Source: a virus
Length of the DNA: 36,119 bases
Reading direction: 5' to 3' (one strand)
IMG/VR virus record: IMGVR_UViG_3300049483_000139
Coordinates: 1 to 36,119 of that record
Shown here: piece after piece, positions 4,237-33,066 of the stretch
How positions within the stretch are numbered: the first letter of the stretch is position 1
How the letters are laid out: each line of letters opens with the position of its first letter
Program-made: the position numbers and the translations under genes
The notes under the pieces: model-generated
Seen by the model: the letters and a program-made list of their open reading frames with translations, nothing else
Databases searched by the model: none
Told to the model about the DNA's origin: nothing

Positions 4237-4587
4237 ATGGCAAATGAGCAACTTCAAAATGCAATGATTGAGGCAATGATCACATCATTAGGTGTGGTAA
4301 CTACTGCCTGCAAAGCCTGCGGAGTATCCAGGCAAACACACTACGGCTGGCTGAAAGAAGATGAATCATACAGGAAGAAGATCGAAGAGCTGCGGGAAAT
4401 AAAGAAAGATTTCATTGAATCTAAACTTATGCAGTTAGTTAATAGTGGTGATACGGCAGCAACGATCTTCAGCGCAAAGACACAGCTTAAAGACAGGGGC
4501 TATGTTGAGAGGACAGAACAGGACTTGAATATAACCGGTGCATCAATACAACTCATTATGCCGCCAGATGAACCCGCTGAAAATTAA
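4237..4587 (+). CDS. terS: Terminase small subunit
   Basis: 116 residues. An N-terminal helix-turn-helix (TTACKACGVSRQTHYGWLKE near 22-41) is followed by a charged helical region and an oligomerisation-type segment with SGDTAATIFSAKTQLKDRGY near 66-86, typical of phage small terminases that treat each protein as a DNA-binding ring subunit. It recognises the packaging site and hands DNA to the large subunit. It overlaps the first part of the split large terminase (start 4568) by 20 bases, as packaging genes often do. Confidence 0.85.
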   Translation: MANEQLQNAMIEAMITSLGVVTTACKACGVSRQTHYGWLKEDESYRKKIEELREIKKDFIESKLMQLVNSGDTAATIFSAKTQLKDRGYVERTEQDLNITGASIQLIMPPDEPAEN

Positions 4588-4954
4588 TTTAACCCCAACA
4601 GCTAAACGAACACTTTTAGCTATTCAGGATAAATACCCCGTCATCGTTAATGAGGGCGGCGCTCGATGTTTTCATGCAGGGCAATTAGTTATAACAGAAT
4701 ACGGACCTGTCCCTATTTCAAGTTTATCGCCGGGGCAAAAAGTATTAGCACATGATTTTGATACAGGAGAGGATATTTATGCAACAGTTAGTGGTTTAGC
4801 TGAATTGGATAATATAAAGTCGTGTGTTAAAATAAAACTCAAGTCAGGGAAAGAAATAATATGCACTGAAGATCACAAAATATATTTTAGCGGAAGGTGG
4901 TGCGAAGCAAAAGAAATATTATCTTTGTTTGATGAAGCAAACAAAAAACTTTAG
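4568..4954 (+). CDS. terL: Large terminase N-extein (33 aa) fused to N-intein
   Basis: From the ATG at 4568 the first 33 residues end in NEGGAR, the left half of the terminase P-loop. Residue 34 (codon 4667) is Cys and begins intein block A: CFHAGQLVITEYGPVPISSL. Block B follows as CTEDHKIYFSG with the usual T-x-x-H. After 95 intein residues the frame stops at 4952-4954, before any block F/G. The matching C-intein is in the same frame at 5432, separated by an endonuclease gene in another frame. The product therefore has to splice in trans with that protein. Longer starts such as 4538 are possible, but 4568 overlaps terS in the usual way. Confidence 0.9.
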   Translation: MNPLKINLTPTAKRTLLAIQDKYPVIVNEGGARCFHAGQLVITEYGPVPISSLSPGQKVLAHDFDTGEDIYATVSGLAELDNIKSCVKIKLKSGKEIICTEDHKIYFSGRWCEAKEILSLFDEANKKL

Positions 4955-5447
4955 CCGCTATTTTACCACAGAGGATGGGCATATTTATTCATTGAATTAT
5001 AAGAGAACCGGTAAAACTAAGATTATGAAGCCAGCCATATCTACTGACGGGTATTTAAAAACTGTATTACTTGACGATGGCGGGAAATATCATACAATTG
5101 CAGTTCACCGATTTATTGCATTGGTTTACTTTGGCGAAAAGCCTTTTAAACATGAAGTCAATCATAAAAACGGAATTAAAACGGATAATCGTGTTTGTAA
5201 TTTAGAGTATATTACACATCAGCAAAATGTTCAACATTCATATAAAACAGGATTACAAAAACCAAAAAACGGGAGTGCAAATCATTATGCTAAACTGAAC
5301 GAAGATCAGGTAACAGAGATTAGAAGGGTAGCTGAATCAGGTGGAAGATATTACGGGCGAAAAGAACTTGCAATGAAATTCGGGGTAGCTGAATGTACTA
5401 TAAAGGACATTGTAACAAGGAGAAGAAATTCATGGTATCATGTTTAA
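4932..5447 (+). CDS. HNH homing endonuclease (NUMOD4/HNH) inside the fractured terminase
   Basis: 171 residues from the ATG at 4932 (a TTG lies one codon before). Residues about 7-45 look like NUMOD4 (FTTEDGHIYSLNYKRTGK). The HNH core follows: AVHRFIALVYFG near 57, EVNHKNGIKTDNRVCNLEYI near 77-96, with HQQNVQHSY after it. The C-terminus has a helix-turn-helix DNA-binding segment (GRKELAMKFGVAECTIKDIV). It starts 23 bases inside the N-intein gene and ends 16 bases inside the C-intein gene. It probably cuts intein-free terminase alleles and so spreads the whole insert. It is a free-standing frame, not fused to the intein. Confidence 0.88.
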   Translation: MKQTKNFSRYFTTEDGHIYSLNYKRTGKTKIMKPAISTDGYLKTVLLDDGGKYHTIAVHRFIALVYFGEKPFKHEVNHKNGIKTDNRVCNLEYITHQQNVQHSYKTGLQKPKNGSANHYAKLNEDQVTEIRRVAESGGRYYGRKELAMKFGVAECTIKDIVTRRRNSWYHV

Positions 5448-6664
5448 CCTTAAATGATATTGAAAGCTGGGAGCGAGTTGAACTTCCTATTGTTTATGAT
5501 TTGTCAGTAGAAAATACTGTAAACTACTATATTGATTGTGATAAACCGATACTCGTTCATAACTCAGGCAAATCATACGGCATCATTCAATGCCTGATAT
5601 ATCTCGCTCAAACAACTCCGGGAATTAGAATATCTGTAGTGTCTCATTCACTTCCTCATATCAAACGTGGCGCTTTCAGAGACTTTAGACTGATCATGCA
5701 TGATTGGGGGCTGTGGGATGATGGTAAATTTTCTTATACCGATTTTATATTCACATTTGAAAATGGAAGTTACATTGAATTATTTGGCCTCGAGGATGAA
5801 AGTAAGGCCCGGGGACCGGGAAGGGATATTTTATTCGTAAATGAAGCCAACCTGATAAAGAAAACATTATTTGACCAGTTGGCAATGCGAACGACGGGAC
5901 AAATATTAATAGATCTTAATCCCGCTGATCTTGAATGCTGGTGTTATGATTTAGCTGATAATACAAGCAATAAGTGCATACACTCTACGTATAAGGACAA
6001 CAAGATTTATATAAATGGACAGTGGCAGTCTAATCTTTCACAAACTCAGATTTCATACATAGAGGCATATAAAGACGGAGATCCGTACATGTGGGAAGTA
6101 TATGGATTAGGTATGCGTGGCCGGGCTACTGATATTATCTATACCCACTGGAAACTTTGCCCGGAGTTGCCAATGAAAGGTGAGTTGTTTATGGGGTGTG
6201 ATTTTGGCTATAATGTTCCGACATCATTAGTTTTGTGTGAGCTATATGAAGGGTCTGTATATGTAAAAGAAATTATTTACCAGACTAAGCTTACAACTAC
6301 TGATCTTATTTATAAATTTGAAGATGTTGGTGTATCAAAAACGATACAAATATTCTGTGACAACGCAGAGCCAAAAACAATAGAAGAGATACGGAGAGCC
6401 GGATATAATGCATGGGAGGCCGACAAAGATGTGACAGAAGGAATAAGAAGGGTAAAATCAATGCCTTTATTTATAACAGAAAATAGTAGTAATATTGTAA
6501 AAGAAATAAAATCATATAAGTGGCGGACAGATGTTAACGGAAAAGTCATTAAAGACAAAGACAGGGACGAACCGGTAAAACTTAATGATCACGCAATGGA
6601 TGCAATGCGTTACGCTATATTCACAAAATTATACCAACCGCATTATAGCTGGGTGGCAATGTAA
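5432..6664 (+). CDS. terL: C-intein fused to large terminase ATPase/nuclease
   Basis: The chosen ATG at 5432 has AAGGAG 9 bases upstream; another ATG in frame is at 5393. Residues 1-44 are the C-intein: block F LPIVYDLSVENTVNYYIDC and block G ILVHN. Splicing would occur after Asn (codon 5561) with Ser +1 (5564), giving SGKSYG, the right half of the P-loop. Next come Walker B ILFVNEAN near residue 133, the RNase H-like nuclease start MGCDFGYN near 254, a second acidic strand IFCDNAEP, and LNDHAMDAMRYA near 384. The spliced enzyme would be 33 + 366 = 399 residues, a normal size for this family. It drives DNA packaging and cuts concatemers. Confidence 0.92.
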   Translation: MVSCLTLNDIESWERVELPIVYDLSVENTVNYYIDCDKPILVHNSGKSYGIIQCLIYLAQTTPGIRISVVSHSLPHIKRGAFRDFRLIMHDWGLWDDGKFSYTDFIFTFENGSYIELFGLEDESKARGPGRDILFVNEANLIKKTLFDQLAMRTTGQILIDLNPADLECWCYDLADNTSNKCIHSTYKDNKIYINGQWQSNLSQTQISYIEAYKDGDPYMWEVYGLGMRGRATDIIYTHWKLCPELPMKGELFMGCDFGYNVPTSLVLCELYEGSVYVKEIIYQTKLTTTDLIYKFEDVGVSKTIQIFCDNAEPKTIEEIRRAGYNAWEADKDVTEGIRRVKSMPLFITENSSNIVKEIKSYKWRTDVNGKVIKDKDRDEPVKLNDHAMDAMRYAIFTKLYQPHYSWVAM

Positions 6665-11084: not shown

Positions 11085-11633
11085 ATGAGTACAGTAGTTT
11101 TTACCAGGTCGGGCGATACTATAACCTACACAATAAATGGGGTTTCGTTTAATCTCACCGGACAAACTCCGATACTTTTTTCTAATGGCAAAGAAATAGT
11201 GATGGATGCCATAGGGAAACAATTGCATTTTCAGTCAATAGATAGCATTACGGTAAACGGTGTGCTATTAACAGAACAGGAGCCGCATGAGATAGTGGAT
11301 ATAATCAGGTCGCAAATATTCGGGATAAATTACCAACAGACTTATAAGCAGTATGTGGCATTGCTTACACAAAGCGGGACTAATGCGCCGGTAGCAACGG
11401 TGCTGGCTAATACATTGGGTGGTACAGTGGTGTGGAGTTATGATGCTTCTGGTCAATATCATTGTACATTATCAGGAGCTTTTGTCACAAACAAAACATG
11501 GATTACCCCGATAACTATTGACGGGTCTGGTGCTGGCTTAAATTTGGTTGACGCTAACACTGTTTCAGTATATAGTCCTGCCGGTGATGATGTATTGGTT
11601 AATACATCAATAGAAATCCGTGTGTACTACTAA
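11085..11633 (+). CDS. Putative virion protein with beta-rich C-terminal domain
   Basis: 182 residues with no recognised catalytic motif. The N-terminal 60 residues are beta-rich (YTINGVSFNLTGQTPILFSNG). From about 85 the sequence QYVALLTQSGTNAPVATVL, then NTLGGTVVWSYDASGQYHCT, resembles a domain seen often in Bacteroidota phage structural proteins; this is recalled, not searched. It has its own promoter box and is walled off by a terminator upstream, so it is expressed separately from the head operon. Candidate capsid decoration or fibre protein, and a possible target of the glycosyltransferases encoded next. Confidence 0.6.
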   Translation: MSTVVFTRSGDTITYTINGVSFNLTGQTPILFSNGKEIVMDAIGKQLHFQSIDSITVNGVLLTEQEPHEIVDIIRSQIFGINYQQTYKQYVALLTQSGTNAPVATVLANTLGGTVVWSYDASGQYHCTLSGAFVTNKTWITPITIDGSGAGLNLVDANTVSVYSPAGDDVLVNTSIEIRVYY

Positions 11634-11653
11634 AACAAAACAGCCACTGATAT

Positions 11654-11671
11654 AATCTACAAAGATTTTTT
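11654..11671 (+). terminator. Weak terminator-like hairpin
   Basis: AATCT-ACAA-AGATT with T-run 11666-11671. Only five base pairs, AT-rich. It lies after the gene at 11085 and its T-run overlaps the -33 element of the following promoter. Confidence 0.3.
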
Positions 11672-11698
11672 GTCACTCCGAAATAATTACTATCTTAG
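11669..11698 (+). promoter_or_regulatory. Bacteroidota-type promoter for the glycosylation operon
   Basis: TTTG at 11669-11672, 18 bases, then TATCTTAG at 11691-11698. This is close to the Bacteroidota sigma consensus TTTG-N19-TAnnTTTG (one mismatch in the last box). An 8-base-loop hairpin TAGCTGT/ACAGCTA (11696-11717) follows in the leader. It would drive 11817-16820 and beyond. Confidence 0.55.
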
Positions 11699-11718
11699 CT
11701 GTATCGTTTAACAGCTAC

Positions 11719-11784
11719 ATGAAAAATATTCTAAACTTTACGGCGGCTTTTTCAATGAATCTTCACTTTAATGTGGCAGGTTAA
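11719..11784 (+). CDS. Possible 21-residue leader peptide
   Basis: An ATG opens the frame MKNILNFTAAFSMNLHFNVA plus G and stop, downstream of the promoter and before the first clear gene. It has no recognisable family. It may be a leader peptide or chance. Confidence 0.2.
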   Translation: MKNILNFTAAFSMNLHFNVAG

Positions 11785-11816
11785 ACGACATTGGATCAGT
11801 CGCCTATTTTTATTTT

Positions 11817-12014
11817 ATGGCAACTACAGAAAAGAAACCACGCAAATCACCTGTTCCTGCTAATGCTGAACGCATAACCGAAGGTGCTTTAAAACTTCCG
11901 TTAGAGGAAAGGATTGATCTTAATAAGATTCTTTCCGATTCAATAAAAAATGAAATGGAAGCCGGAAAGAAAAAGCTTGAGGACTTGACAATGAAGCTTA
12001 ACGGTGTAAAATGA
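11817..12014 (+). CDS. Small charged protein heading the glycosylation operon
   Basis: 65 residues, lysine- and glutamate-rich, with a helical core (ALKLPLEERIDLNKILSDSI) and a coiled-coil-like end (MEAGKKKLEDLTMKL). I do not recognise the family. Its stop overlaps the start of the first glycosyltransferase as ATGA, so it belongs to the same transcript. It could be a small regulatory or structural factor. Confidence 0.65.
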   Translation: MATTEKKPRKSPVPANAERITEGALKLPLEERIDLNKILSDSIKNEMEAGKKKLEDLTMKLNGVK

Positions 12015-12652
12015 ACTCATCCGAATGGCAATTAATATCATCGGCTTACTGCCTTAACCTTGATAAGAATATTACAACGAGGTGGCCGAAGGCGCATGAT
12101 CAGTTCATTTCTGTTGGTATAGAAATAACACGTGTTAATTGTGTTGAAAGCACCGAAAATAGATTTATTAGTTTTAACCAGTCGCACTACAACACAGTTA
12201 AAAGTGGTTATGAAACAGGTAAACCATTTGCGATATTTGAGGATGATATTGTTTTTGATCCGATGTGGAAATTTGTATCGGAGGCCAGTAGCGAACTACC
12301 GGAAGATTGGGAATTATTGTATTTGGGTTGCAACTTTCATGGGGAGTGGTTAAGACCGCAAAGATATTCATCCCATTTGGTTACGCTGCCAAACGCATGG
12401 CAATCTCATGCCATAATTTACTCTTTAAGAGGGGCAAAATTTGTATTGGATAATTTCAACCCGGACATAATAACGGCAGAAAATCCGGTATATGATGAGT
12501 GGTTACGGGTAAACGCTATGACCAGGGGAAAAACATACCTTACTAATCCAATGATATGCTATCAGAGACCATGCTTTAGTGACGTATGGATGGTAGATGC
12601 CGATTATACGTCGGTGCATATTGATGGCAATAAAATATTAAGCAGATTATGA
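12011..12652 (+). CDS. Glycosyltransferase family 25-like (LPS type)
   Basis: 213 residues. YCLNLDKNITTRWPK near 13-27 resembles the opening INLD..RW block of GT25 enzymes, ENRFISFNQSHY continues it, and PFAIFEDDIVFDP near 72-84 holds the E-D-D metal/nucleotide-sugar motif. LYLGCNFHG near 102 matches the YLG block. GT25 enzymes transfer galactose or related sugars onto lipopolysaccharide or protein glycans. ATGA overlaps couple it to both neighbours. The acceptor here is unknown and could be virion or host surface glycan. Confidence 0.8.
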   Translation: MNSSEWQLISSAYCLNLDKNITTRWPKAHDQFISVGIEITRVNCVESTENRFISFNQSHYNTVKSGYETGKPFAIFEDDIVFDPMWKFVSEASSELPEDWELLYLGCNFHGEWLRPQRYSSHLVTLPNAWQSHAIIYSLRGAKFVLDNFNPDIITAENPVYDEWLRVNAMTRGKTYLTNPMICYQRPCFSDVWMVDADYTSVHIDGNKILSRL

Positions 12653-13407
12653 TACGACTTATAACATTCAGTGATGATAATATGACCCAAAGTGCAGAGG
12701 TGTGTTATCATTCGGCATTGGCTAATGGGGTTGATGAAGTCTGTAAGAATTCTCCACAAAGCATAAGTCCTGAGTTTTATAAAAATAATTGGCAGACACT
12801 TATCCAAAAAAGAGGTTGCGGTTACTGGTTATGGAAGCCATATATTATATACAATGCTATGTTATCATTAAAAGACGGGGACTATTGCGTTTATTCTGAT
12901 GCCGGGGTAAAGTGGATAAACAATGTGAATGAAATCATTTCGAGAATGGATCAGGATATATTTCTTTTCTCAAATGGTCATTCTCATATACATTGGTGTA
13001 AAATGGATGTATTTCAAGCGGTATTGCACAGGCCACTGCAACCAGCGTGGCATCCTTTAGACATTCAATACCAACAAGTACAAGCCTCAGTGATTTTCAT
13101 TAAAGTAAATCAGAACACCCGTAATTTTATTAAAGAATGGTTGCTTTGGTGCCAATTCCCTGGTTTCATAGATGATAGTCCATCTAATTTACCAAACCAT
13201 CCTGAATTTGCTGAACACAGGCATGACCAAGCAGTATTGACCTGCCTTGCGATAAAATATGGATACAAATTACATTGGTGGCCAGATGCAAAATGGTATC
13301 TTAGTCAGCGTTACCGTTGGCCGGAAGATACTTACCCGGAAATGTTGGAGCATCATAGAAACAGGGACAAAGGAAAAGGAGACGGGGTCAACCCGGAATG
13401 GGAATGA
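12649..13407 (+). CDS. Probable glycosyltransferase (GT-A-like, capsular type)
   Basis: 252 residues. KRGCGYWLWKPYIIYNAM near 54-71, then GDYCVYSDAGVKW near 76-88 with an SDAG in the place of a DxD motif, and HRHDQAVLTCLAIKYG near 194-209 follow the pattern of polysaccharide glycosyltransferases in bacterial surface-glycan loci. No signal peptide or membrane segment. It lies inside the overlapping glycan operon, which supports the call. Sugar donor and acceptor cannot be told from sequence. Confidence 0.65.
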   Translation: MIRLITFSDDNMTQSAEVCYHSALANGVDEVCKNSPQSISPEFYKNNWQTLIQKRGCGYWLWKPYIIYNAMLSLKDGDYCVYSDAGVKWINNVNEIISRMDQDIFLFSNGHSHIHWCKMDVFQAVLHRPLQPAWHPLDIQYQQVQASVIFIKVNQNTRNFIKEWLLWCQFPGFIDDSPSNLPNHPEFAEHRHDQAVLTCLAIKYGYKLHWWPDAKWYLSQRYRWPEDTYPEMLEHHRNRDKGKGDGVNPEWE

Positions 13408-13892
13408 TAATCGGAACCGGTGATATAGCATCTGTAATAACAGACATGGAAGATATAACATTCTTCGCCTCAGGTGTATCTGATAGTAAATGCACTGATC
13501 CGGCAAAATTCAAGCGGGAGGTTGATCTGTTAAAAAAAATGCCACGCCATCAGCATCTTGTTTATTTTTCTACGCTATCAATTTATTATAATTGTAACCC
13601 TTATGTTGCGCATAAGAAAAGAATGGAGCAGTTGGTGAAAGACCTTTTTAATACTTTTACTATTGTAAGAATTGGCAATATAAGATGGGGTAATAATCCT
13701 AATACGCTGATAAACTATTTGATTGAGCATCCAAAAGCCGACATTCAGCAGGTATGGAGGCACATTGTAGATAAAGATGAATTTAAGTATTGGATTAACC
13801 TTATTAAGCCAGGAGAAAGCACTGAAATGAACATACCAGGTCAAATGGTGTGGGTTCCATTTTTATTCAAAACAATACACGGAAATGTCTGA
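13398..13892 (+). CDS. Compact SDR-type epimerase/dehydratase or reductase
   Basis: 164 residues, about half the length of a nucleotide-sugar epimerase. An N-terminal GTGDIAS near 6-12 resembles a shortened NAD(P)-binding glycine motif, HLVYFSTLSIYY near 53-64 carries the catalytic Ser strand, and YVAHKKRMEQLV near 69-80 the YxxxK pair. The C-terminal substrate domain is much reduced. It could finish a sugar donor for the neighbouring transferases. The start overlaps the previous gene by 10 bases. Confidence 0.65.
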   Translation: MGMIIGTGDIASVITDMEDITFFASGVSDSKCTDPAKFKREVDLLKKMPRHQHLVYFSTLSIYYNCNPYVAHKKRMEQLVKDLFNTFTIVRIGNIRWGNNPNTLINYLIEHPKADIQQVWRHIVDKDEFKYWINLIKPGESTEMNIPGQMVWVPFLFKTIHGNV

Positions 13893-14454
13893 CATAGTAA
13901 CGCTAAATAAAGAATCGTTAAGTATTTGGCAGGCCAATGATCTTGAGCCGATGCGATACGATTATGATATAAAACCGGGAGATATTGTTTTGGATATAGG
14001 CAGTTATCAAAGAGAGTGGGGAAAAGTATTTGAAGAAAAGGGATGTAATGTAGAGTATTTCGATGCACTTGATAACAGGGCTGCATGGAAGTGTGATGGT
14101 GAATTAATGATGGCCGGGGCCTATTATTATACTTCCATGTACGGAAAACAAAATGCTTCATATAAGTGTGTTGATATAGCCCCATATCTTCAAAAAGAAA
14201 TAGCCTTAGTGAAAATAAATATTGAAGGCGGGGAGTATGAGCTGATTGAATATATTATAAGTAAGGGGCTGCATGAGAATATCATAAATTTGCAGGTACA
14301 ATTTCATTTAATTGACGGAAAAGATTGCGAAGCTATGTATAAGGTTATTTCAGACCTTTTGAAGGAAACACATAAATTGATATGGAGATATCCTTTCTGC
14401 TGGGAAAGCTGGCAAAGAAAAGACGAATATTATAAAAAATTTGCAAATGCATGA
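13885..14454 (+). CDS. FkbM-type methyltransferase
   Basis: 189 residues. GDIVLDIGSYQREWG near 32-46 is the SAM-binding motif I, VEYFDALD near 56 the following strand, and IALVKINIEGGEYELIEY near 109-126 the conserved I-x-x-E-G-x-E block of FkbM enzymes, which O-methylate sugars or amphiphilic glycans. It overlaps both neighbours by a few bases. Likely role is methyl capping of the glycan made by this operon. Confidence 0.75.
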   Translation: MSDIVTLNKESLSIWQANDLEPMRYDYDIKPGDIVLDIGSYQREWGKVFEEKGCNVEYFDALDNRAAWKCDGELMMAGAYYYTSMYGKQNASYKCVDIAPYLQKEIALVKINIEGGEYELIEYIISKGLHENIINLQVQFHLIDGKDCEAMYKVISDLLKETHKLIWRYPFCWESWQRKDEYYKKFANA

Positions 14455-15016
14455 TTTTGTAAAAAAATACGGATACAATATAACATCCCAAAATAATGAG
14501 AACGGAATTATACGGGAGTGTCTTGAAAGGATCAATCCTGAGTTAAAGATAGCTGTTGAATTTGGTGCGCCCGATCAAATGTATTGCAGCAACATTTATC
14601 CGCTTAAAGAACATGGTTGGGACTGTTACTACTATGACGACAATACTACCGACCCATTTGTAACAAAGAAAAAAATAACAGCTGATAATATAAACGAGTT
14701 GCCTAAATGCAGCGTTCTAAGCATGGATACCGACGGGTGTGATCACGATCTTTGGCTGGCCTATAATGGTAAGCCTGATATTGTGATAATAGAGATCAAT
14801 AGCAGCCTGCCACCAATGATTGAGCATAGCAGTTATGATAAAGGGGCAAGCTATATATCTATGCTGGTAACCGGAATTGCAAAGGGATATTTTCTTTTGG
14901 CGCACACCGGGAATTTAATCATGTTGCTTAATAAGCACAGGTGCCTTTTCCCGGAAGTCGAAGGGGACGGAATAGATAATTATGAATTGTATTTTAATAA
15001 AAGCTGGCTTCAATGA
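14441..15016 (+). CDS. Methyltransferase-like protein
   Basis: 191 residues. IAVEFGAPDQMYCSNIYPL near 37-55 sits where SAM-binding motif I is expected, CYYYDDNTTDPF near 62 follows, and CSVLSMDTDGCDHDLWLAY near 90-108 with DIVIIEINSS after it mirrors the FkbM arrangement in divergent form. It may be a paralogue-like partner of the preceding gene. The stop overlaps the next start as ATGA. Function within glycan modification is inferred from position. Confidence 0.55.
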   Translation: MQMHDFVKKYGYNITSQNNENGIIRECLERINPELKIAVEFGAPDQMYCSNIYPLKEHGWDCYYYDDNTTDPFVTKKKITADNINELPKCSVLSMDTDGCDHDLWLAYNGKPDIVIIEINSSLPPMIEHSSYDKGASYISMLVTGIAKGYFLLAHTGNLIMLLNKHRCLFPEVEGDGIDNYELYFNKSWLQ

Positions 15017-15789
15017 TCACCGCTAAATCACTTGCAACAGGAGGATTGGGACGTTTTGGCAATCAAATGTTTACCATTGCCGGGTGTATCGGAGTTGCTG
15101 TCAAGTCCGGCCAACCCTATGCCTTCCCTGAATGGAAAACACATGATAATGCAATCTTCGGCAATCCTATTGATAATATAAACGATTTTTTATTAAAACC
15201 ATTACCGGGACTTGCAACAACATCAGGCTTTCAGGATTACGGTTATTTTTGGGGATATAGAAATGTTTATCTTCCCTGGGGGGACTGGTCAATAGATGCC
15301 CACATGCAATCGGACAAGTTTTTCAATAATTGTCTTCCATTAATAAGAGAAACATTTACTTTCAAAGACGAACCAGAACAAACCGATTGTGTTGCTATTC
15401 ATTACCGGGCAGGTGATTATATAGATAATCCCGATGCTTATCATCCACGATGTAGTAAAGAATATTATGAGAATGCAATGGCATTATTTCAGGCAGGCAC
15501 AAGGTTTATGTTATTCAGTGATGATACGATAGAATTTATGAAGTTGGCAAAGCTGATGCCATACGGCACATCGTGTGAATTTAGCATCGGTAAAAATTAC
15601 ATCGAAGATTTCAAGATAATGAAACGCTGCAAATCATTCATAACCGCAAATAGTTCATTTTCATTAATGGCCGCAATCTTAGGGGATCATCCAGACAAAA
15701 AAATAATTTGTCCAAAAAGATGGTTCGGTTCACAGGCTGGGGACATTGAAACAAAAGATTTATATCCTGAAAATGCAATAATAATATGA
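15013..15789 (+). CDS. Alpha-1,2-fucosyltransferase-like (GT11)
   Basis: 258 residues. LGRFGNQMFTIAGCIGVA near 12-29 is the GRLGNQMF opening of GT11, VAIHYRAGDYIDNPDAYHP near 127-145 contains the HxRxGDY donor motif, and CKSFITANSSFSLMAAILG near 210-228 the third conserved block. Full length for the family. It uses GDP-fucose or a similar donor, which would have to come from the host since no GDP-fucose synthesis gene is visible. ATGA overlaps join it to both neighbours. Confidence 0.85.
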   Translation: MITAKSLATGGLGRFGNQMFTIAGCIGVAVKSGQPYAFPEWKTHDNAIFGNPIDNINDFLLKPLPGLATTSGFQDYGYFWGYRNVYLPWGDWSIDAHMQSDKFFNNCLPLIRETFTFKDEPEQTDCVAIHYRAGDYIDNPDAYHPRCSKEYYENAMALFQAGTRFMLFSDDTIEFMKLAKLMPYGTSCEFSIGKNYIEDFKIMKRCKSFITANSSFSLMAAILGDHPDKKIICPKRWFGSQAGDIETKDLYPENAIII

Positions 15790-16820
15790 AAGTACTTTGG
15801 TCAATACACTTATACCCCCCCACCCATAATTGCGGAAGTGAGTACGTCGCACATCATGTTAATAAATTTCTTATCAGCAGAGGACACGAATGCAGGGTTA
15901 TCCTTCATCAGGATAAAAACATAAATACACCTTATGATCATGAGGGAGTATATTGTATGGGCAGCAATGTAGGGACAAGAATAGATGCCTATGCGTGGGC
16001 TGACATTATCCTTACCCATCTTGATATGACACAGTTTTCTATTGTAATGGCAAGGGAGGCGAGAAGACCATTAGTCCACTTTGTTCACAATGATATACCA
16101 TATCAATCTATCACAAACAATTTTGGAAATGTATCAGCGGTATATAATTCAAAATGGATATGCGATAAAATTGGATATACTATACCCGGCATTGTATTAC
16201 ATCCACCATGTAATACAGACCACTATACAACCGAAACAACGGGTGAGTTCATAACACTTATTTCTTTGAATGAAAGAAAGGGTGGATACAGGTTTTATGA
16301 GATTGCTAAGGCAATGCCTGATAAAAAGTTTTTGGGCGTCATAGGCAGCTATGATAATCCGGGACCGCTAAAAAAGGCACAGGTTGATATTATAAACGAA
16401 TGCCTGCAACTGCCCAACTTCACCCTGGTAGCAAATACTCCTGATATACTATCAACATACAGAAGGACAAGGCTTTTACTGATGCCGTCTGATTATGAAA
16501 GTTGGGGGCGCACGGCGACAGAGGCCATGTGTTCGGGCATCCCGGTTATCTGCACACCGACGCCCGGACTTAAAGAGAATTGCCAGGATGCTGCGGTATA
16601 TGTCGGCAAGCCTATCAAAGATTGTCAGCCGGGAGATGCTCAGGTTGATATTGGCACTGTGGATGATTGGGTGGCGGCTATTCGTAAATTCGACGATCAT
16701 GAATACTACCAAAAATATTCGTTACTTTGCAAGGAAAGGGCGAAACAGCTTGATCCGGTGAAAGAATTGGAAGCCCTTGAAAGTTTCCTATATGAGCAGC
16801 AACAGAATTATAAACGTTAG
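15786..16820 (+). CDS. Glycosyltransferase family 4-like (GT-B)
   Basis: 344 residues. MKVLWSIHLYPPTHNCGSEY opens the acceptor domain, and the C-terminal donor domain has LLLMPSDYESWGRTATEAMC near 227-246 with the E-x(7)-E pattern and GIPVICTPTPGLKEN. This is typical of GT4 retaining transferases. The last gene of the glycan operon overlaps the head-tail connector gene by 29 bases, showing that cargo and structural genes share one transcript. Confidence 0.85.
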   Translation: MKVLWSIHLYPPTHNCGSEYVAHHVNKFLISRGHECRVILHQDKNINTPYDHEGVYCMGSNVGTRIDAYAWADIILTHLDMTQFSIVMAREARRPLVHFVHNDIPYQSITNNFGNVSAVYNSKWICDKIGYTIPGIVLHPPCNTDHYTTETTGEFITLISLNERKGGYRFYEIAKAMPDKKFLGVIGSYDNPGPLKKAQVDIINECLQLPNFTLVANTPDILSTYRRTRLLLMPSDYESWGRTATEAMCSGIPVICTPTPGLKENCQDAAVYVGKPIKDCQPGDAQVDIGTVDDWVAAIRKFDDHEYYQKYSLLCKERAKQLDPVKELEALESFLYEQQQNYKR

Positions 16821-17415
16821 CAGATATGAATCGTCGCCATCTGAGCCGGTTACGCTGGCTCAGGTAAAGTCTCACCTAATCATAACATTTACCGATGACG
16901 ATACTATGATTACATCTCTGATAACTCAGTGTCGTAAGGCCATAGAAGAATATTGCGCAATAAGTATAGTAATGCAGACTGTGACGCTGATTGCTGATCT
17001 GTTTAAAGAATGGGAGCTACCTTATGGCCCTGTAACCGGATTGTTGTCTGTTAAAACGAGAACAGGCAATGAAGGCAGCGGGCCGGGAACTTACGAAACG
17101 CTTTCATCGGGATGGACTTATGACGGAAACGACTTTGTTACATTCACACCAGCTCCTACAGGAGGTTTTAATCCGGGGGCTCCATTTACAGGACATTTCC
17201 AGTGGGGGCCATATTCGTCGGATAGATCATTGGTGAACAGATATAAGATAGTATATACATCGGGATATGCTAATGTGCCAGATGCGCTAAAGCTGGCAAT
17301 ATTGAATGAGATTACTTACCGTTACGAAAACCGGGGCAGTGAGGCACAATTGGAAGGAATATGTTTTGCAGCGAGAACGATGGCAGAACCGTATAAAAGA
17401 ACCCTATGGTTTTAA
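16792..17415 (+). CDS. Head-tail connector (gp6-like)
   Basis: 207 residues from the ATG at 16792 (a TTG at 16777 is also in frame). SSPSEPVTLAQVKSHLIITF near 13-32, then DDTMITSLITQCRKAIEEYC, is the classic opening of gp6/DUF3168-type connector proteins, and the last third has YKIVYTSGYANVPDALKLAI. It forms a ring beneath the portal. The gene ends CTATGGTTTTAA; the same 14 bases occur again at the start of the next structural gene 508 bases on. Confidence 0.85.
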   Translation: MSSNRIINVSRYESSPSEPVTLAQVKSHLIITFTDDDTMITSLITQCRKAIEEYCAISIVMQTVTLIADLFKEWELPYGPVTGLLSVKTRTGNEGSGPGTYETLSSGWTYDGNDFVTFTPAPTGGFNPGAPFTGHFQWGPYSSDRSLVNRYKIVYTSGYANVPDALKLAILNEITYRYENRGSEAQLEGICFAARTMAEPYKRTLWF

Positions 17416-17417
17416 TT
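17404..17417 (+). repeat. Left 14-bp direct repeat flanking the RNA element
   Basis: CTATGGTTTTAATT, containing the last codons and stop of the connector gene. It is identical to 17912-17925. Both also have AC three bases before, so 16 of 17 bases agree. It reads as a target duplication or recombination scar. Confidence 0.75.
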
Positions 17418-17423
17418 ATGACA

Positions 17424-17882
17424 TACCGAAAACAAATAATTAGTTGCGATTAATTTTTCTTATGACAAAAAATAAAAATTCAATTAATCGCAACTTTGTA
17501 AAGGGCAGTATTATCAATTAAATTAAAAAAGTCTTATAATGTTCATTCGCATTATGTTACATAGGATATTGCGTTTTGTACTTTACTTCAAAACAAAACG
17601 CATGAAGGTCATAAGCGCAGAATTTTGATGAAAAAATATTCGGGTAAAAACGAAAATTCCCTTACATTGGGTTGTAAGGGAGTTCGAGCCGGTTACTGAT
17701 GCGGTATTAGACGGTTTCCATCTACTGGCACTTTCGTCGCTCTATTTTCGTACGTATGATGAGTCCTCAAAACTATGAGGACTTTTCTTTTGTGCGTAGG
17801 TGAGCGCAGGCATCCTATTTACACATAATGCGTATTATAAGACTTTTTCTTCCTTGCCCTTTACAATTATTTGTTTTCGGTA
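17424..17882 (+). ncRNA. Predicted large structured RNA, about 460 nt, family unknown
   Basis: A protein-free stretch folds into nested helices: 17424-17441 with 17865-17882 (18 bp perfect), 17497-17507 with 17855-17865, 17526-17540 with 17834-17848 (15 bp), 17548-17557 with 17823-17832, and 17561-17567 with 17812-17818. Side hairpins branch from this rod: 17442-17454/17483-17495 (13 bp), 17571-17579/17593-17601, 17620-17626/17653-17659, 17660-17666/17673-17679, 17688-17693/17724-17729 and 17762-17769/17776-17783. Helices were found by eye. The form resembles the large ornate RNAs of phages (GOLLD, ROOL) in style, but I cannot match it to any family. No intron core motif is evident. Strand is assumed from the operon. 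A MITE-like DNA element is the main alternative. Confidence 0.7.
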
Positions 17883-17911
17883 ATGGTCCCATGTATTTTA
17901 TTATCTTTACT

Positions 17912-17925
17912 CTATGGTTTTAATT
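17912..17925 (+). repeat. Right 14-bp direct repeat flanking the RNA element
   Basis: CTATGGTTTTAATT, holding the start codon (17914) of the head closure gene. Second copy of 17404-17417. Collapsing the two copies makes the stop of the connector gene and the start of the closure gene overlap by 10 bases. Confidence 0.75.
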
Positions 17926-18288
17926 CAAGGGTTCCATATCGGCCAAATGAGATCATCTGTTCATTTCCTGAATAATGTACCTACGCAGTCTGCGAATAAT
18001 GAACATGAAGAAATAACGACAGGAGGCTGGAATGATGTTTATGGGACTTTACTTTTAACCAGGGGGCGGTTAAGAAAGCAATCGGGAGGCCGGGATCTGG
18101 CTTTCGGGCTAATAGCTGGTAATGATAGTTATGAATTGATTTGCCGGTTTCAGGCGACACTGGAAGCAGCATTGCAGGTAAATGGAAAAGTAATTGTAGA
18201 TAGTGTTAATTACACTATTGCATCATGGGAAAAGGTTGATCAGATAAATCACATTTATAAGTTCAAATTAAATACACAGGTTGCCTAA
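17914..18288 (+). CDS. Head closure / head-tail adaptor protein
   Basis: 124 residues. The order MRSSVHFLNNVPTQSANNEH near 12-31, TTGGWNDVYGTLLLTRGRLR, then IDVDSVNY-like KVIVDSVNYTIASWEKVDQI near 93-112 follows SPP1 gp16-type head-tail adaptors (phage_H_T_join). It plugs the connector after packaging. TATCTTTA lies just before the start at 17902-17909. It is separated from its partner at 16792 only by the RNA element. Confidence 0.78.
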   Translation: MVLIQGFHIGQMRSSVHFLNNVPTQSANNEHEEITTGGWNDVYGTLLLTRGRLRKQSGGRDLAFGLIAGNDSYELICRFQATLEAALQVNGKVIVDSVNYTIASWEKVDQINHIYKFKLNTQVA

Positions 18289-32149: not shown

Positions 32150-32476
32150 CTACAGCACCGGCATATTTATTTCCTTCGGTGCGCACGGAAAGCTTTTCAT
32201 TATCTGCAAATGATTTGAAAACTTCATAGTCTGGGTATAATTTATACCATCCATTAATTGCCCAATCAGCTTTTTATCCATATTCCCACCAGGATAATTT
32301 ATCAATACCGATCTTTTTTCTTTTTCCGTTAATGGTTGGAAATATAAATTACACTTTTCAAGCCTTATAATTCTTGAAGCGAATTTTATGCAATCCTCAT
32401 AAAAGGCTTCTGATAACATGGGGTTTGGCAAAATAGCCACTTCCGAATGTACCTTCAACTGAATATCGCTGTTCAT
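32150..32476 (-). CDS. Hypothetical protein
   Basis: 108 residues from an ATG at 32476 (a TTG three codons earlier is possible). MNSDIQLKVHSEVAILPNPM, then EDCIKFASRIIRLEKCNLYF, reads as ordinary soluble protein, with no family recognised. It faces the endolysin across a terminator and is the last of the - strand genes. It may be part of the accessory array. Confidence 0.5.
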   Translation of the reverse strand: MNSDIQLKVHSEVAILPNPMLSEAFYEDCIKFASRIIRLEKCNLYFQPLTEKEKRSVLINYPGGNMDKKLIGQLMDGINYTQTMKFSNHLQIMKSFPCAPKEINMPVL

Positions 32477-32534
32477 CTGTACCAAGTAATTGATTTTTAT
32501 ATTTTCAAATGTGGCTACTTAGCCAAGCCCTATT

Positions 32535-32657
32535 CGATATACAAAATTTGCTGCCGCACAAAACCCCTGCTCACACGGTAGCGGGAGTTGCCCGGAAGTC
32601 TATCTATTTTCGACTTTTTAGACCGGGCAACTCCCGCTACCTAAATTTTGTATATCG
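32535..32657. repeat. Long double inverted repeat (123 bp hairpin)
   Basis: Outer arms 32535-32549 and 32643-32657 (CGATATACAAAATTT, exact) enclose inner arms 32577-32595 and 32623-32641 (GGTAGCGGGAGTTGCCCGG, exact). A third short stem AAGTC/GACTT lies in the loop. A near-identical inverted copy of GATATACAAAATTTGCTGCC lies at 32692-32713. No gene is supported in 32477-32898; only these repeats and the next element are seen. Confidence 0.75.
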
Positions 32658-32689
32658 GATTTCGCAAGAAAAAGAAGGGGGTCGTTTAC

Positions 32690-32905
32690 AGCGGCAGCAA
32701 ACTTCGTATATCACTGCATTGCCGCTATTTTACCCTTCTTTTTCACCGCTGTTTTTCATTTCCGGTATTTAAAAATGCGGGGGCAATATTCCTCTAATCC
32801 TTGCCATCGGACTTCTCAGGTACACTCGTTAGAGTGCTCAGAGTTATTCTTCCCGCTTTTTAAATCCCTTCATTCAAACAGCGGCAATGCGAAATCCGTT
32901 AGGCG
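32690..32905 (-). repeat. attC-like inverted repeat after the RHH gene
   Basis: On the - strand the element opens with GCCTAAC (32899-32905, overlapping the stop codon of the RHH gene) and continues with arm GCATTGCCGCT (32880-32890), which pairs with AGCGGCAATGC (32716-32726). It ends near GTTTGCTGCCGC. The spacer of about 150 bases is longer than typical attC sites. Confidence 0.45.
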
Positions 32906-33066
32906 TTATTGCTACCAGCCTTTAATTTCGCAGAGTAAGCCTCAATCAGTTTTCTTATTTCAGTCTCACAGAAATTCTTACGGCTGCGACCTTCTTCCTT
33001 TGCCAACTTATCCAGTAGCTTAACCTCCTTTGCTTCTAAGTGTATCTCTATTCTTACCTTACTCAT
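32899..33066 (-). CDS. Ribbon-helix-helix (CopG-like) protein
   Basis: 55 residues. MSKVRIEIHLEAKEVKLLDK and then LAKEEGRSRKNFCETEIRKL: a beta strand RIEIHL followed by two helices with the G-R-S-R-K-N-F turn is the RHH fold of small DNA-binding regulators and antitoxins. It starts as an ATGA overlap on the preceding gene (33063-33386), so the two form one operon. Its stop lies in a GCCTAAC box, as expected for an integron cassette. Confidence 0.75.
   Translation of the reverse strand: MSKVRIEIHLEAKEVKLLDKLAKEEGRSRKNFCETEIRKLIEAYSAKLKAGSNNA

Follow-up and report, generated by a model that had tools for sequence, protein, structure and literature searches.

Phage late operons are regarded as tightly packed protein genes. 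The window analysed here, which is the whole 36,119-nucleotide stretch of the IMG/VR virus record IMGVR_UViG_3300049483_000139, contains a siphophage late operon in which 494 bases are inserted between the head-tail connector and the head-closure genes. The features at this joint are as follows (window coordinates):

16777-17415 (+): upstream neighbour, the head-tail connector gene (Pfam Phage_connect_1, 5.8e-12; PHROG head-tail adaptor), from the longest frame to the ORF end; the real start may be slightly further downstream
17404-17417 (+): 14-bp repeat, left copy, with the stop codon of the connector gene
17418-17911 (+): the insert, a protein-free element with no substantial ORF, flanked by the repeat and strongly folded (z -11.0)
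17902-17915 (+): TATCTTTA[C/G]TCTAT, the right end, common to the window and the homologue L024
17912-17925 (+): 14-bp repeat, right copy, with the start codon of the closure gene (ATG 17914)
17914-18288 (+): downstream neighbour, the head-closure gene by position, with homologues in the same place in the relatives L010, L022 and L024

That the block between the connector and closure genes is protein-free, as the initial annotation had claimed, is borne out by an ORF scan, in which no frame longer than 34 aa is found inside the insert, the ends of the flanking frames excepted. Both neighbouring genes are complete without splicing; the head-closure frame has neither a Pfam nor a PHROG match. 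The direct repeat CTATGGTTTTAATT is exact over 14 bp with a spacing of 508 bp (17 bp if one mismatch is allowed) and, as had been described, one copy contains the stop of the connector gene (ORF to 17415) and the other the start of the closure gene. Repeated 14-mers within 600 nt occur at 15 positions in the window and are thus not rare alone, so that this repeat gains its weight from where it lies and from the empty alleles in relatives. The right-end motif, which is not seen in the third copy (L073), is a candidate recombination edge or promoter remnant. A promoter scan of the element gives chance-level results, and a terminator-like hairpin is found in the variable tip of the window element and none in the L024 block.

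Relatives of this phage were located via searches with the major capsid protein and the connector. Removal of the block and one repeat copy had been predicted to leave an overlap of 10 bases between the two genes, and this ancestral joint is real, because connector/closure overlaps of 10 bases occur in L010 (exactly 10 bases, ATGGTTTTAG), in L022, a stretch of phage DNA within a genome bin of Saprospiraceae (ATGGATTTGA), and in L073 (ATGGCTTTGA); empty alleles are thus at hand in three relatives.

A second copy, L024, carries a homologous block (~4619-5173) at the same connector/closure joint. By blastn it is 71% identical to the window across the 5' arm, with additional pieces in the 3' arm, and the flanking genes of the two phages are 59-62% identical (codon alignment). 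On the two sides of the block the DNA of L024 is 88% and 82% identical to that of L010, which is empty. L024 retains TACGTCAATTATGGTTTTAG downstream of its block, a sequence that in L010 forms the coding end of the connector; L024 is therefore most simply read as having acquired the element in a genome resembling L010. Its connector now has another terminus, RMLWI, provided from the left side.

The third copy came from a covariance model, R2, built on the 5' arm and consisting mostly of sequence, which matches a contig of the L007 phage (L073) with an E value of 0.0016. As this match is weak by score alone, the identification rests on shared fold, motifs and place. In L073 the element fills a gap of ~405 bases between a tail terminator-like gene and that of the major tail protein, a joint that is closed in the window, L024, L022 and L010, and the gap sequence is folded (z -8.7) on the same plan as the window element. 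CGTCAGAATCCTTAA, in which the upstream gene presumably used to end, lies downstream of it and is followed by a spacer that aligns to the empty L022 allele. Related phages therefore have the element at two distinct joints, and its orientation is the same at both. The initial annotation had called the block mobile-looking, and mobility is supported by the empty alleles, by presence and absence between the close relatives L024 and L010, and by the homologue at another joint of the operon.

All three copies are oriented with late transcription and lie between virion genes. The neighbouring genes are intact, since each side of the element has an end for the upstream gene: in the window as an exact 14-bp copy on both sides, in L024 and L073 as a replacement gene end at the left with the former end as a remnant at the right.

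On the + strand the insert folds with -170.2 kcal/mol, against a mean of -102.5 for shuffled sequences (z -11.0), and the - strand gives z -11.9; the 500-base window starting at 17401 is the top outlier among 1,167 windows taken from the window and its relatives. The L024 element folds with z -5.0. Helices P2 to P7 are common to all three copies. The 5' and 3' arms form a rod (P3-P6), with the P2 hairpin at its 5' foot and P7 as a side hairpin on the 5' side of the inner junction, after which the tip follows:

17424-17441 (+): P1, left strand of a perfect 18-bp outer helix (partner 17865-17882), in the window only
17442-17495 (+): P2 hairpin (arms 17442-17455 and 17482-17495)
17496-17507 (+): P3, left strand (partner 17855-17866)
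17508-17525 (+): AT-rich bulge separating P3 from P4, asymmetric, about 17-18 bases, present in each of the three copies
17528-17540 (+): P4, left strand, conserved core (partner 17834-17846)
17550-17557 (+): P5, left strand, conserved core (partner 17823-17830)
17562-17567 (+): P6, left strand, conserved core (partner 17812-17817)
17571-17601 (+): P7 hairpin (arms 17571-17578 and 17594-17601)
17602-17787 (+): tip of about 185 nt, unrelated in sequence in each copy, with the terminator-like hairpin (stem 17761-17784, + strand)
17788-17864 (+): 3' arm, with a TTTTGTG motif, AGGC and the right strands of P6, P5, P4 and P3

The P2 loop ACAAAAAATAA and, 3' of it, CGCAACTT are common to the window and L024. 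The perfect 18-bp outer helix noted initially exists in the window, but no counterpart of P1 is seen in L024 or L073, and P1 is therefore placed outside the conserved fold.

Covariation had been named as a check on this structure, and it is positive. Among 57 pairs aligned across the three copies, 27 are changed on both sides (shuffled mean 8.8, maximum 17 in 5,000 shuffles, a test that ignores the relatedness of the copies), and the alignment contains 3 broken cells against a shuffled mean of 43. The pairs were aligned by hand, with helices picked from predicted folds and the inserted P4 pairs of L024 omitted. The clearest case is the exchange in P3 (GTAAAGGGCA/TGCCCTTTAC, TACAAGGGCA/TGCCCTTGTA, TTACCCTGA/TCAGGGTAA). 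A comparison of two copies over the helices gives 14 double changes and zero single changes. Of the 169 cells of the conserved core, a single one is G-U. A maintained structure is thus strongly supported by the two-sided changes in the compared sequences. Of the large structure first described, P2-P7 are conserved, whereas each homologue has an unrelated tip in place of the one that contains several of the local hairpins. Tips measure 140-200 nt across the copies and contain hairpins in the window, a possible ORF in L024 and a 22-bp helix in L073. The possible ORF, 58 aa on the minus strand, has no relatives in PHROG, phage or PDB searches and only a weak match in 198 genomes; it may be a chance frame. 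By eye, the window tip has a possible resemblance to a 16S rRNA motif.

The initial annotation could assign the block to no known RNA, intron or transposon class, and this agrees with Rfam, where no match, including to GOLLD, ROOL and the introns, was obtained for the window at the gathering score or for any of the three copies up to E 10 with permissive filters. Likewise, annotated phage and plasmid records give no blastn match to the element, and exact-pattern scans of IMG/VR return L024, the other matches being judged chance. A covariance model of the two joined arms with the tip removed (R1), in which L024 letters had been edited to force the alignment, failed because real tips are 140-200 nt. 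No hit to R2 at E 0.001 was found in 375 Bacteroidota genomes and no element pattern in 395 genomes; these samples are a small fraction of the phylum and had no positive control, so that absence there means little.

Further structured or mobile features are present in the window and its relatives. In the large terminase subunit of the window (4538-6664) a split intein seems to break up the Walker A motif (GGAR^C...HN^SGKS), with an N half at 4538-4954 containing a Hint domain, an HNH endonuclease frame at 4929-5447 and a C half at 5393-6664; in the L013 terminase the motif is uninterrupted (GGARSGKSYG). A second strongly structured stretch without convincing genes lies at ~32530-32901 of the window, adjoining the stop of a minus-strand frame of ~55 codons; the region 32400-33060 folds with z -11.6 (+) and -8.3 (-) and contains inverted repeats of 14-29 nt, and blastn of the stretch against phages, plasmids and 296 genomes gives no match. 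In most relatives the major capsid gene and the connector are separated by a cassette of sugar-transferase and methyltransferase-like genes (seen in the window at 11085-17415, in L006-L013 and in L022), and a frame at 35803-36348 of the L007 contig (L074/L075) resembles, by eye, a free-standing HNH homing endonuclease within this cassette. Folds better than expected (z -2.5 to -3.5) occur at the end of the major capsid gene and just after it in L008, L009, L010, L011, L014, L018 and L022, and are possibly a shared terminator or RNA. On the L010 contig, the region L077 (4250-4700) is structured, without obvious genes and unrelated to the element, and contains AAAGGGCAATCAAT...ATTGATTAGCCCTTT. 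At L010 17795-18187 the closure gene appears to extend ~390 bases further in the 3' direction than its counterparts in the window and L024; the gap between the L010 closure and gp10 genes has no unusual fold and is apparently part of this longer closure gene.

Among the systems already described, the nearest in spirit are GOLLD and ROOL, large RNAs of phages whose function is unknown and which often lie near tRNA islands (PMC12286853); they too are structured non-coding phage sequences of several hundred bases (PMC12286853). The element differs from them in lacking an Rfam match, in its position among virion genes instead of near tRNA genes (of which the window has none), and in being a rod with an exchangeable tip that moves between joints. 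Like phage morons, it is accessory DNA inserted between genes that adjoin in relatives, both of which are left intact, but it has no clear protein gene and its conserved content is the fold. It shares with MITEs and foldback transposons a short, protein-free make-up, an inverted-repeat character and empty sites in relatives; it differs from these and from IS-derived elements in that the outermost repeat is missing in two copies, the outer helix of the window is off-centre and the inverted repeats are not at the ends. Target duplication is not constant either, the gene ends of L024 and L073 being non-identical. With integron attC sites it has in common, as a resemblance only, an imperfect hairpin, one-sided unpaired bases and a variable terminal part, whereas it is much longer and has here no known integrase and no cassette array.

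Considering all these data, we see about an even chance that the element is a member of a new mobile, protein-free family (about 370-550 nt, known from three copies, all metagenomic) in siphophages of Bacteroidota-like hosts, which acts as structured RNA cargo. The more general reading, a new class of mobile element in which a folded scaffold, RNA or single-stranded DNA, carries an exchangeable tip and moves between late-operon joints leaving a working gene end, could equally well prove right or wrong. Judging from gene orientation, the + strand should be copied by late transcription, which would yield the element as RNA; this RNA would fold and then either act or be cut out of the late mRNA. 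The element would in this way be a structured RNA gene carried as accessory phage cargo, an RNA "moron", whose arms would serve as scaffold and whose tip would be the exchangeable part. Recombination within the genes on either side would be the main route of its spread between phages, and one or more true moves to a different joint would presumably have been made by some enzyme.

What was first called a structured RNA stands as far as the maintained structure is concerned, but RNA as the acting molecule is unproven, as the pairing is strand-symmetric and the core nearly free of G-U. Fold stability is about equal on both strands in all copies and the G-U counts give no clear strand; such symmetry and the near-absence of G-U are uncommon for an RNA under selection on a single strand and leave room for a role as folded DNA. 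The main rival to the RNA gene, which we regard as less probable than it, is a foldback element at the DNA level, whose arms would fold as single-stranded DNA during replication and be acted upon in trans by a recombinase of the phage or the host, in a manner akin to an attC hairpin or a non-autonomous single-strand transposon; the tip would be a passenger and transcription incidental. No recombinase or transposase is linked to the element, its ends have no motif conserved in all three copies, the target duplication varies, and it is far longer than known attC sites. Strand-symmetric pairing, the core almost devoid of G-U and the movement between joints speak in favour of this rival, as do the asymmetric bulge and the variable tip, which in our own comparison are reminiscent of attC hairpins with their extrahelical bases and variable terminal structure (PMC5371416). 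Transversion-rich compensations were dropped as evidence for DNA, since unpaired sites have the same bias.

It is rather improbable that the element acts solely in cis on the late mRNA, separating, stabilising or tuning virion genes as a processing site or insulator and having no function off the mRNA. Its constant operon sense between virion genes and the terminator-like hairpin in the window tip would suit such a role, but it is missing in the close relative L010, which has the same gene order, and both the joints and the tips differ between copies, while a dedicated regulator would be expected in one place. Less probable still is a palindrome kept perfect by template switching in replication without any selected function: the changes from Watson-Crick to Watson-Crick pairs with hardly any G-U intermediates are of the kind expected, yet all three copies retain the asymmetric bulge and the internal loops, conservation extends to unpaired motifs, and the paired arms lie about 260-400 nt apart; the transversion excess does not favour it, because unpaired sites show the excess too. 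Least credible is a self-splicing or retro-type element that has lost its protein: ORF-less group I and group II introns and retron RNAs are likewise mobile and structured, of similar size and equipped with a variable domain, the one of L024 possibly containing a small ORF, but no copy conforms to the group I or group II intron models or has a core match in Rfam even with permissive filters, a reverse transcriptase (PF00078) is absent from eight phage records, possibly incomplete, in which the controls were recovered, and the neighbouring genes need no splicing.

If the reading as a structured RNA gene or folded scaffold is true, these siphophages would carry a new type of mobile element or a mobile non-coding RNA gene, in which structure is conserved more than sequence.
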